From Actinomycetota bacterium (GTDB lineage: Bacteria > Actinomycetota > Actinomycetes > Nanopelagicales > Nanopelagicaceae), in assembly GCA_016870365.1 (NCBI GenBank), contig VGBW01000009.1, positions 1 through 43,357 of the forward strand: DNA of 43,357 nucleotides. The letters run 5' to 3'. A program made the translations under genes and the position numbers. A model generated the notes under the pieces. The model was not told the DNA's origin, did not search any database, and saw only the letters and a program-made list of their open reading frames with translations. Below, one piece after another: positions 34,220 through 38,414 of this stretch (position 1 is the first letter of the stretch; each line of letters starts with the position of its first letter).

Positions 34220-35132
34220 AGCTGCCTTTGTTGCAATTGTGGGCAGGCCCAATACTGGTAAATCAACTCTTGTTAACGCTCTAGTTGGCCAGAAAGTAGT
34301 TATTACCTCTCATCATCCAAATACCACTAGAAATGCGATACGAGGAATTGTCACACGCCCTGATTTTCAACTAGTTGTTGTCGACACCCCCGGAGTTCAT
34401 AAGCCAAAGACGCTGCTGGGTGGAGCGCTAAATTCTGTTGTGAATGAGAGCATGGAATCCGTTGATGCCATTGTGCTCTGCATTCCCTCTGTTGAAGCAA
34501 TTGGAGCAGGGGATCTCTTCATAGCCAAAGAGATGGCACGTCATCAAAGAGCAAAGAAAATTTGTGCCCTAACTATGATCGATATGGCCAAGAAGGCTCT
34601 GATGCCAGAGCAATTAATTGCGGCAAGTAAATTAGCAAAAGATGCTGGCTTTGCCTGGGATGACGTGGTGCCTTTATCGGCCAAAACTGATGATCAAGTG
34701 CAATTGCTGATGGATCTGCTAGCCAAATACGCTCCAGAATCACCACCTTTCTATCCAGCCGATATGAGCTCTGATCAAGAGCTCACTACCCAGATCGCTG
34801 ATCTGATTAGAGAGGCTGCTATCGAAGATGTCTTTGAAGAGGTTCCTCACTCAATTGCCGTCTTGATTGATGAGATCTCAGAGCGTGAAAGAAAACAAGA
34901 AGGCGATGCTGCTTTCTTTGATATTCATGCATCGATCATTGTCGAGCGCGATAGCCAGAAGGCAATAATCATTGGCCATAAAGGTGAGAAGCTAAAGCGA
35001 GTTGGCACTATGGCGAGAGCTGAGATTGAAAAGAAATTAAAGGCCCGAGTATTTCTTGGACTTTATGTAAAGGTCTTGGCCAATTGGCAAAGTGATCCCA
35101 AAGCTCTATTCAAGCTGGGGTTTACCCAGTAA
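34209..35132 (+). CDS. era: GTPase Era
   Basis: Ribosome-assembly GTPase that binds the 3' end of 16S rRNA. 307 residues from ATG 34209 (MKYKAAFVAIVGRPNTGKS). G1 GRPNTGKST, G2 TTRNAIRG, G3 DTPGVHKP; the KH domain is near the C terminus (IIIGHKGEKLKRVGTMAR). The G4 position reads T-M-I-D (ALTMIDMAKK) where NKxD, or TKxD in many actinobacteria, is expected, so the guanine-contacting Lys is Met. It overlaps dprA and its stop overlaps the convergent EamA gene by 11 bp. ybeY and recO, frequent neighbours, are absent. Confidence 0.95.
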   Translation: MKYKAAFVAIVGRPNTGKSTLVNALVGQKVVITSHHPNTTRNAIRGIVTRPDFQLVVVDTPGVHKPKTLLGGALNSVVNESMESVDAIVLCIPSVEAIGAGDLFIAKEMARHQRAKKICALTMIDMAKKALMPEQLIAASKLAKDAGFAWDDVVPLSAKTDDQVQLLMDLLAKYAPESPPFYPADMSSDQELTTQIADLIREAAIEDVFEEVPHSIAVLIDEISERERKQEGDAAFFDIHASIIVERDSQKAIIIGHKGEKLKRVGTMARAEIEKKLKARVFLGLYVKVLANWQSDPKALFKLGFTQ

Positions 35133-36000
35133 CAACTGGCGTGTCAGACTTCTTGCTTGCAAGGTAAGACCCAATCAAAACCAATGGAAGCCCAATAGCA
35201 ATTGCTAGCGTTAACTTCTCATCAAGAATTATGATTCCAAGAACTACTGCAACCGCAGTGTTCGGATAGACCACCAACGATGCTCTGGCAGGTCCAATTT
35301 CTCTTAGGACGATAAAGAAAATCCAGAAGGCAAGGCCCGTTGAAAAGAATCCTAGAGCTACAGTGGCGCCGATTGCCTCCATCGAGGGGCTCTGAGTTGG
35401 AAGGTTTATTGCGGCGAAGGGAGCAAAGAAAACCAAAGCCATTGCCATCGATAAGCCATTGATTGCCACCCCAGAAATCTCAGGACCCAGCCTGGTTATC
35501 ATATTTAGTGCCCAGGCATAAGAAATGGATGCAATCAAGACCATCATTATGGCAATTGCACTTTCAAAGTCATTTAAGGACTCAATTCCAACCAGAAGTG
35601 CCACACCTAATAACCCTGTGGCAATTCCAAAGATTCTAGTGCGATGAGCTGCTGTGCTATCACCGCCATGATGAGCAAATAGAGTGGCCCATATGGGAAC
35701 AGTTGAAACTAATAGTGCTACTAATCCTGATGAGAGATCCTTTTGCGCGGTGGTGATCAAATACCAAGGAATCACCATCTCAAGAACGGAGTAATACATG
35801 ATGTAGGGCCAGTACTTAAGGGCTGGGCGGATAGATTTTTCATAGAGCGCCACTGGAATCAAGAGAAGTGAGCCGATAGCCAGGCGCGAGAAGACAATGA
35901 CAGGGGTAGATAGTTCTTCAACGGCGACTTTCATGAATAGGTACGGAACGCCCCACAGCAGACCTACCAGGGCAAAAAGCGCCCAACCTTTCTTAGACAT
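35122..36000 (-). CDS. EamA-family (DMT) transporter
   Basis: 292 residues, about ten membrane helices in two EamA repeats of five (repeat 1 begins KGWALFALVGLLWGVPYLFMKVAV; repeat 2 near residue 150). Substrate unknown; exporters of amino acids and metabolites are common. Its ATG directly follows the glgM stop codon with no gap, so it is co-transcribed with glgM. Confidence 0.88.
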   Translation of the reverse strand: MSKKGWALFALVGLLWGVPYLFMKVAVEELSTPVIVFSRLAIGSLLLIPVALYEKSIRPALKYWPYIMYYSVLEMVIPWYLITTAQKDLSSGLVALLVSTVPIWATLFAHHGGDSTAAHRTRIFGIATGLLGVALLVGIESLNDFESAIAIMMVLIASISYAWALNMITRLGPEISGVAINGLSMAMALVFFAPFAAINLPTQSPSMEAIGATVALGFFSTGLAFWIFFIVLREIGPARASLVVYPNTAVAVVLGIIILDEKLTLAIAIGLPLVLIGSYLASKKSDTPVVTG

Positions 36001-37167
36001 TTACTTTATCAAACTCCGATATAACTCGACGGTAGCTTGGGCGACCCTATCCCATCCAAAGTGCTCAGTGGCACGTTTTCTGCCTAATTGACCGTATCTT
36101 ATGGAAAGTGATTTATCTGACATCACATTATTTATAGCCAAAGCTAATGACTCTTCAAATTCTGAAGGGTTAGCTGAGTAATCAACTAATACCCCAGTTT
36201 CATTATCAATTACCACTTCAGGGATACCGCCCACTCTTGAGGCTATGACTGCTGTTTGGCAGGCCATAGCCTCTAGGTTAACAATTCCTAAGGGTTCATA
36301 GATTGAAGGACAGAGAAATACTTGGGCTCCAGTGAGAAGCGCAGTTAACTCTTCTCGATTCAGCATCTGCTTAATCCAGATGACACGTCCACGCTGATGT
36401 GCCAGCTCTGAAATCAGTTGTTCAACTTCAGCACTGACGGCTGGTTCATCAGGAGATCCTGCAGCAAGAACTAAGCAGTATTCTTCGGAGACCTTCTGCC
36501 AGGCACGAAGGAGATGAGCTAGTCCCTTCTGCCTCGTGATTCTTCCAACAAATAAGCCAAAGGGCTGGCTAACTCCAAACTTCTTTAAAACCGCAAGATT
36601 TGGATTGGGGGCAAAAGCTTTGGTGTCTATCCCACTTCTTATCGTTACTACCTTGTTGGGATCAACCTCTGGGTAGGCCTTTAAGACATCCTCTCTCATG
36701 CCTTCGCTAACTGCGATGATGGCAGATGCGCTCTCATATGAAATTTTCTCAGCCCATGATGAAATCTGATAACCGCCAGCTAATTGCTCAGCCTTCCACG
36801 GGCGCAGAGGCTCTAATGAATGGGAGGTGATCACATGAGGAATTTCAAATATCTTCATAGCTAAATATCCGGATAGGTTTGCATACCAGGTATGGGAATG
36901 AGCGATATCCATTCCTTTAAGGTTCTTGGCAATATCACTATCAATTAGCAGGGCTTGAAGCGCAGGATTAATCGAGGATAACTCGCTAGGTAATTGATAA
37001 TTTGAGGCATCACCTCTTGGTCCTCCAAAGCAGTGCACAAAACTTTCGATCTCACCGCTTTCATTAAGGGCAGAGACTAGGTTCGAGATATGAACCCCTG
37101 CTCCACCATATATTTCAGGAGGCCACTCTCTAGTAATCATGGCTACTTTTACCTTAGCGCGGCTCAC
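36001..37167 (-). CDS. glgM: Glycogen-pathway glycosyltransferase GlgM (glycogen synthase, GT4)
   Basis: 388 residues. The N-terminal [25 protein letters not shown] and the C-terminal [24 protein letters not shown] are typical of the actinobacterial GT4 enzyme that makes maltose-1-phosphate from ADP-glucose and glucose-1-phosphate (Rv1212c type), formerly called GlgA. GTG start at 37167, with TACTCT ending 6 nt upstream. Divergent from glgC, whose product ADP-glucose is its donor. The choice between maltose-1-phosphate synthase and classical synthase is by orthology. Confidence 0.9.
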
Positions 37168-37190
37168 CTGCCAAGAGTATCGTTAGGTCT
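37168..37190. promoter_or_regulatory. Bidirectional glgM/glgC promoter with overlapping -10 elements
   Basis: Only 23 bp separate the two start codons. Plus-strand TATCGT (37178-37183) is 7 nt from the glgC ATG; minus-strand TACTCT (37174-37179) is 6 nt from the glgM GTG. The two hexamers share 2 bp, and each gene's -35 would lie inside the other's coding sequence. Neither gene has an RBS. Confidence 0.55.
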
Positions 37191-38414
37191 ATGCCTCGCT
37201 TAGATCTTCCATTAGGAATAGTTCTTGCCGGTGGTGAGGGTAAGCGTTTGATGCCGCTGACAGCAGATAGAGCTAAGCCGGCAGTTCCTTTTGGTGGCTC
37301 ATATCGTTTAGTTGATTTTGTTCTCTCAAATCTTGTCAATGCAGGTTTCCTAAGAATTGCAGTTCTTACTCAATACAAATCTCATTCGCTCGATAGGCAT
37401 ATAACTACTACTTGGAGAATGTCTACTCTTCTAGGTAACTACATAACTCCAGTTCCCGCCCAGCAGAGACTCGGTCCACGCTGGTATACCGGAAGTGCTG
37501 ATGCGATCTTGCAGAATTTCAATCTAATCCACGATGAGAATCCAAAACATGTAATTGTCTTTGGAGCCGACCATGTCTACCGCATGGATACAAATGCGAT
37601 GTATTTAAGTCACTTGCAAAGTGGAGCAGGGGTAACAGTTGCTGCAATTAGAGTCAAGAGATCAGAGGCTTCAGATTTTGGCGTTATAGAACTCGATAGC
37701 GATGGAGTTTCCATAAAGGCATTCCACGAAAAAACTAAAGATCCACCAGCTATGCCAGGTCATCCTGATCTCTGTCTAGTTTCCATGGGTAACTACATTT
37801 TCCGCCGTGATGCCATGGAGGAAGCGCTAATCCTAGACTCTGAAGATGTTGATTCCAGGCATGACTTGGGCGCCAACATTATTCCGGCTATGACTAGAGC
37901 TGGCCTTGCCAAGGTTTATGATTTTGCTAATAACGTTGTGCCAGGTGAGACAGAGCGCGATAAAAGTTATTGGCGTGATGTGGGAAGTATTGACAATTAT
38001 TTTGATGCTCACATGGATCTAGTCTCACCGCTTCCGGTATTTAATCTATATAACCGAAAGTGGCCGATCCTTACCAATCCACCATCACTTCCGCCTGCAA
38101 AATTCTCCGAGCGGGGAATTGCCTTCGATTCCGTGGTCGGAGCGGGCTCGATTATTTCTGGCGGGGAGCTACGCAGAACCGTGGCCTCCTATGATGTGCA
38201 TGCCGGTCGTGACTGCGTCGTTGAAAGCTCGGTGCTTATGCCAGCCGTGCGAATAGGAGATGGAGCCAGGGTTAAGAATGCAATACTGGATAAGAGCGTA
38301 GTAGTTGAATCTGGAGCCAGTATTGGATTTGATTTGGAGAGAGATCGCCAGCGCTTCACCGTCTCACCTGGCGGAATAGTTGTAGTCGGAAAAGGCATTG
38401 TAGTTACGCGTTAA
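37191..38414 (+). CDS. glgC: Glucose-1-phosphate adenylyltransferase GlgC
   Basis: Makes ADP-glucose from glucose-1-phosphate and ATP, the committed step to glycogen. 407 residues. Nucleotide-binding [28 protein letters not shown] at the N terminus, [10 protein letters not shown] in the core, and a C-terminal left-handed beta-helix. Starts 23 bp from divergent glgM, probably leaderless. Confidence 0.96.

Follow-up and report, generated by a model that had tools for sequence, protein, structure and literature searches.

The 23 bp between the divergent glycogen genes glgM and glgC very probably constitute a minimal bidirectional promoter of the housekeeping-sigma type, in which one symmetric core serves two leaderless mRNAs; the start sites, the use in both directions and the sigma factor are predicted. 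The position, geometry and conservation of this arrangement, the genome-wide leaderless signature and the recurrence at other gene pairs are established. The window (the whole stretch of DNA analysed, 43,357 nt) belongs to an actinobacterial assembly of 1.29 Mb with 47 % G+C, and the host is a small-genome, streamlined freshwater actinobacterium. The features of the locus are as follows.

36001–37167, minus strand: glgM, GTG start at 37167; actinobacterial glycogen synthase family, TIGR02149
37191–38414, plus strand: glgC, ATG start at 37191; glucose-1-phosphate adenylyltransferase
37168–37190, no strand: intergenic spacer of 23 bp, CTGCCAAGAGTATCGTTAGGTCT; apparently a two-way promoter and nothing else
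37178–37183, plus strand: glgC -10 element, TATCGT, followed by 7 nt and then the ATG at 37191
37174–37179, minus strand (read from 37179 to 37174): glgM -10 element, TACTCT, followed by 6 nt and then the GTG at 37167
37178–37179, no strand: TA common to both -10 elements; T-12/A-11 of each and the centre of ANNNTANNNT
37173–37184, no strand: invariant block AAGAGTATCGTT, 12 bp in 20 aligned loci, extending to 37186 in the first six
37191, plus strand: predicted glgC transcription start, coinciding with the ATG and placed from the -10 element (37190 if the distance from -10 to start is one shorter)
37167, minus strand: predicted glgM transcription start, coinciding with the GTG and placed from the -10 element; 24 bp from the predicted glgC start

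The glgC protein scored 612.4 bits against NF002023, above the cut-off of 458, and fell narrowly below the cut-off for TIGR02091 (424.2, cut-off 424.9), while the glgM protein scored well above the cut-off for TIGR02149, 'glgA_Coryne' (510.2 bits, cut-off 302.4). An ORF resembling an EamA transporter by eye (35122–36003 of the window, start 36000) lies immediately past the glgM stop. Since its start adjoins that stop, this ORF and glgM are probably transcribed together from the shared promoter of the spacer. At the thresholds used, glgC was without a match in 60 of 121 genomes of the order, including complete genomes of about 1.2–1.5 Mb, and the glycogen pathway therefore seems to be patchy across the order.

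A single -10 core between two genes

The original prediction of a 23-bp spacer with overlapping divergent -10 elements can be read directly from the sequence, with a 2-bp overlap and gaps of 7 and 6 nt to the two start codons. The overlap is the self-complementary TA, which joins the hexamers into ANNNTANNNT (AGAGTATCGT), a near-symmetric core of 10 bases with one -10 element on each strand. By our own geometric calculation, sharing of T-12/A-11 with each -10 element at -12 to -7 places the two starts 23 bp apart. This is the separation predicted in sister species with a 6-nt glgC gap, whereas it is 24 bp here because the glgC gap is 7 nt, if glgC starts on its ATG; a separation of 24 bp is at the edge of the 7–25 bp definition used for bidirectional promoters. 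It is very unlikely that the arrangement of the glgM and glgC -10 elements is due to chance.

In the proposed mechanism, polymerase would bind ANNNTANNNT in either orientation, melting the same few base pairs, and transcription would begin at, or immediately beside, the glgC (plus strand) or glgM (minus strand) start codon, giving two mRNAs without Shine-Dalgarno leaders. Because both mRNAs are predicted to be leaderless, the start codons would mark the edges of the spacer, with nothing else inside it.

Leaderless signature and -35 regions

Numbers of leaderless-type starts and of divergent pairs were obtained from ORF-based gene calls, with starts picked by rule and no annotation pipeline. 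In a 391,591-bp sample of the host genome, TANNNT was located exactly 6 nt before the 5'-most start of 48 of 316 ORFs; for gaps of 10–44 nt the background was about 4 of 316 at each position. The motif was also raised at gaps of 7, 8 and 9 nt (11, 12 and 14 ORFs, respectively), and both glgM (gap of 6 nt) and glgC (gap of 7 nt) match this pattern. Reading of the aligned spacers of the genus detected no conserved Shine-Dalgarno sequence before either gene; the 6–7 nt before the glgC start varied between loci (TTAGGTCT, TTAGGACA, TTCGCTCA), as did those before the glgM start (TTGGCAG, TTGGTTG, TTGCTTC). These sequence features are best read as indicating leaderless mRNAs for glgM as well as glgC. 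Their earlier description as apparently leaderless is backed by the conservation of the hexamers and by the genome-wide TANNNT peak, the starts themselves being predicted from the -10 positions. A comparable TANNNT signal was interpreted as leaderless by Zheng et al. (2011; PMC3160421), and TANNNT without a -35 element was mapped in M. tuberculosis by Cortes et al. (2013; PMC3898074).

The -35 regions had been expected to lie in coding sequence. The zones do fall there, but no -35-like hexamer was found in them, near the spacer, in either direction. The best match over 20 loci of the genus was 3/6 in the forward and 2/6 in the reverse direction in all of them; among 5,000 random positions, 3/6 was likewise the score that occurred most often. 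The -35 candidates of glgM and glgC were thus no better than random and were rejected. With no evident -35 element either way, recognition would rest on the -10 core.

Directional competition and known systems

Because the two -10 elements have bases in common, polymerase would be able to use only one direction in any single event, as had been proposed; this follows from the shared bases together with the statement in PMC12825309 that opposed polymerases at a bidirectional promoter exclude each other sterically. The further claim that expression of glgM and glgC is mutually exclusive in function and yet balanced overall was left unsupported, and mutual exclusion as the main role of the overlap is weakened by published work. 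Warman et al. (2026; PMC12825309) observed no competition at basal activity for five E. coli bidirectional promoters, which fired too weakly for it; weakening of one direction had little effect on its opposite, whereas strengthening of one was required before any competition was seen. Neither direction of the glgM/glgC spacer has a -35 score above the random level, so the better default would be weak firing with little competition. The two directions could physically compete, probably only to a slight extent at low firing.

The founding paper on bidirectional prokaryotic promoters is reportedly that of Warman et al. in 2021. As described in PMC12825309 and in a Salmonella plasmid study (PMC10268837), such promoters have two divergent starts and a common near-symmetric -10 region in which the -10 elements on opposite strands overlap. 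The glgM/glgC elements also overlap, with a shared TA throughout the genus. The preferred separations of divergent starts are 10, 18 and 23 bp (PMC12825309), and sharing of T-12/A-11 corresponds to the 23-bp class by our own geometry, with starts that are predicted here. The promoters in these two papers have measured starts and activity and serve leadered genes, whereas glgM and glgC are predicted to be leaderless. In the latter respect they resemble leaderless actinobacterial genes (PMC3898074, PMC3160421 and, for C. glutamicum, PMC3890552), with TANNNT about 6–7 nt before AUG or GUG and no -35 consensus. In M. tuberculosis, divergent promoters often lie in close juxtaposition, and PrpD (Rv1130) and Rv1129c form a divergent pair in which both genes are leaderless (Cortes et al.; PMC3898074). 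The accessible parts of PMC3898074, PMC3160421 and PMC3890552 contain no statement on two leaderless genes that share -10 bases in a 17–24 bp spacer, and no paper dealing with bidirectional promoters of the leaderless kind in either Actinobacteria or Nanopelagicales was recognized among the matches listed from titles and abstracts of the open-licence literature. The bidirectional promoters of Pyrococcus furiosus (PMC6640164) likewise have one symmetric element that acts on both strands, as shown in vitro, but this is an archaeal TATA element with starts 49 bp apart, mainly in sense/antisense arrangement. One symmetric core for two leaderless mRNAs looks like the new component, whereas the 23-bp class of bidirectional promoter is known.

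Conservation of the core in the genus

Of 24 genomes searched in the genus, 22 had glgC; its 5' end was present in 21, and AAGAGTATCGTT was unbroken in all 21. Conservation of the spacer had been put forward as a check on the original prediction, and the block proved to be the only long invariant one amid divergence, with both hexamers kept in 21 of 21 genomes rather than poorly conserved in relatives. Gaps were measured in 20 loci, while the 21st, L324, was assessed by eye, its glgM having been missed by the motif. In each of these 20 loci, despite differing N-termini, a gap of exactly 6 nt separated TACTCT from the glgM start (GTG or ATG), and the glgC start was 6 nt from TATCGT in 13 loci and 7 nt in the other seven. 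The 12-bp block was unbroken in these 20 loci, in comparison with 7 of 100 glgC third codon positions that were invariant. Spacer length was 22 or 23 bp in the six loci of this genus that belong to the order set described below. In the first six loci, aligned over 300 bp on each side, the sole invariant run of at least 12 bp was that at 37173–37186.

The NNN positions of both hexamers were also invariant in the genus, which exceeds what TANNNT alone needs or explains and is beyond the needs of sigma recognition; the core is, moreover, near-symmetric, as many operators are. These two features would fit an invariant block that is the operator of a glycogen-gene regulator, with its likeness to -10 elements being secondary. 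Such an operator is unlikely, as the gaps to both start codons are fixed at 6–7 nt, which promoters need and operators do not, and equally tight conservation is seen at divergent pairs that are unrelated and have cores of their own. In addition, 791,591 bp of the host genome contain a single copy of the block, and its only one-mismatch copy is 917 bp from the nearest called start. With a single copy in 61 % of the genome, no regulon is seen there, and a glycogen regulon with a common block was rejected for this sampled portion. The shared-core promoter arrangement, as judged from these alignments, is under clear selection.

Evolutionary history of the shared core

Across the order, 61 loci were found and 59 were analysed, with L013 (no glgC motif) and L031 (no glgM, contig end) being left out. 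All 59 loci had a glgC -10 element, TANNNT 6–8 nt before an in-frame start, whereas a -10 element of leaderless type for glgM was found in 20 and the compact shared form in nine (six from this genus, two from g7 and one from g2). Spacers with a shared TA between glgM and glgC are present in other Nanopelagicaceae as well. Four changes are needed for the compact shared form on the order tree, in which many branches are weak. The difference between the first two counts is in favour of a reading in which glgC alone has a genuine promoter in the spacer, with TACTCT being incidental and transcription of glgM being driven from another site. This reading is highly improbable. Any upstream glgM promoter would fall inside the glgC coding sequence, and the glgM start keeps its 6-nt distance from TACTCT in 20 of 20 genus loci while the N-terminal codons change. 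Furthermore, the A that completes the reverse -10 element was present in 48 of the 59 order loci but in only 17 of 72 other leaderless-type promoters of the host genome.

The reverse -10 half was detected within the glgC core in 38 of 39 loci without their own leaderless glgM -10 element and in none of 11 with one. Covariation between this half and loss of the separate glgM -10 element (9/9, 38/39 vs 0/11) was rejected as a finding and retained as a lead, as it comprises two to three independent contrasts and is not significant on the tree (sign test, P=0.5). From the motifs, the glgC core could also drive a leadered glgM where glgM is without a leaderless -10 element. Predicted glgM leaders were about 21–28 nt in the g2, g3, g5 and g9 order loci without their own leaderless glgM -10 element, and G-rich, Shine-Dalgarno-like runs occurred in most g2 loci.

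The class-level dataset consisted of 56 loci, of which 46 had a located divergent glgM; the set includes at least one duplicated spacer (L101/L344) and one duplicated record (L106/L371). A located divergent pair was lacking for 48 of 80 loci, mostly from Streptomyces and Amycolatopsis, and these were excluded from the set except for L107 and L116. Outside the family, 39 of the 46 located pairs were double-leaderless, with separate -10 elements in most, and a shared TA was detected in three of the 46 actinobacterial pairs (Fodinicola L110, L345 and L354). No geometry between -13 and 9 other than the shared TA was found among the 46 pairs. The distribution suggests a repeated collapse of an old double-leaderless glgM/glgC pair onto one core. 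The compact form would have arisen by compaction of an older divergent pair, both genes of which often have separate leaderless -10 elements, with the gap shrinking to 22–24 bp because sharing of the TA permits it. The spacer of L354 (family code f19) is a perfect 22-bp palindrome, GAAGCCACCCTAGGGTGGCTTC, located between CAC and ATG, and is a candidate for a fully symmetric two-way promoter on the basis of its sequence.

Recurrence at other divergent pairs

The 791,591 bp examined in the host genome contained 106 divergent ORF pairs, of which 26 had TANNNT 6–8 nt before both starts. Six of these 26 double-leaderless-type pairs had a common TA, three were of the TANNNTA 18-bp type and one had abutting elements; -10 bases were shared in nine of the 106 pairs. 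The 18-bp class is the commonest in E. coli and Salmonella, whereas the shared-TA type outnumbers it among the overlaps in the host. A control motif gave double matches in one of 106 pairs and control distances in none. A second small genome (G001), sampled over 400 kb, had 15 matching pairs among 56, including three with a shared TA and one with another overlap; the control motif matched one of the 56, and this was a pair with a short spacer. A relative with a 2.2-Mb genome (G007), also sampled over 400 kb, had 9 matching pairs among 56, with no overlap, and the control motif again matched one of 56. Overlap or abutment (d<=1) was therefore present in 14 of 162 pairs from the two smaller genomes and in 0 of 56 from the larger (P=0.023, Fisher's exact test, in a comparison of three genomes only).

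This last difference is as predicted by compaction, and spacers of 17–30 bp are common (12 of the 26 double-leaderless host pairs). Both observations, and the lack of competition at basal activity reported by Warman et al. (PMC12825309), favour two separate one-way promoters that overlap through genome compactness, each working as it would alone and the overlap having no regulatory role. The probability of this alternative is evenly balanced. What speaks against it is that it differs from the shared-core promoter mainly by function and not by anatomy, and that six of the nine overlaps share exactly the TA, which is the cheapest geometry, so that 'separate' elements are hard to define when the same bases are used by both.

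With regard to the shared-core promoter, we lean slightly towards a wider reading, in which a double-leaderless bidirectional promoter of this kind is a standard join between divergent genes in streamlined Nanopelagicaceae and the glgM/glgC state arose several times in Actinobacteria, the symmetry of polymerase coupling the two committed steps of glycogen synthesis. The smallest spacers would be 17–18 and 22–24 bp because at these lengths two TANNNT motifs share bases with 6–8 nt before each start. If this is true, few complete regulatory regions that serve a pair of genes are smaller than these spacers of 17–24 bp, with no leader, no -35 element and one -10 core; they also provide a natural series on how -10 symmetry sets direction and on interference between opposed polymerases, and genome streamlining is able to act on promoters. 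The presence of TANNNT 6–8 nt before both starts is a rule with which start-codon assignments can be corrected in actinobacteria that have not been cultured.

Four other host pairs were traced through the genus, and the geometry was kept in 18 of 18, 22 of 22, 3 of 15 and 8 of 16 loci. For the pair at C3:8409, both halves were kept in the three of 15 loci, while one of the eight of 16 loci for another pair, L255, may be a chance match. The pair kept in 18 of 18 loci (L170:7534–7556; G000 C1:167534–167556) has a 23-bp spacer with the common core AGCCTACGAT; an in-frame ATG that overlaps the -10 element makes its start on the plus strand ambiguous. The pair kept in 22 of 22 loci, for which one further locus ran off its contig, has a 17-bp spacer (L168:15181–15197; G000 C1:135181–135197) with the 18-bp-type core TAGGTTA. 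This spacer is flanked by ORFs of 501 aa (minus strand) and 366 aa (plus strand), which by eye we take to be an M17 leucyl aminopeptidase and GcvT, respectively.
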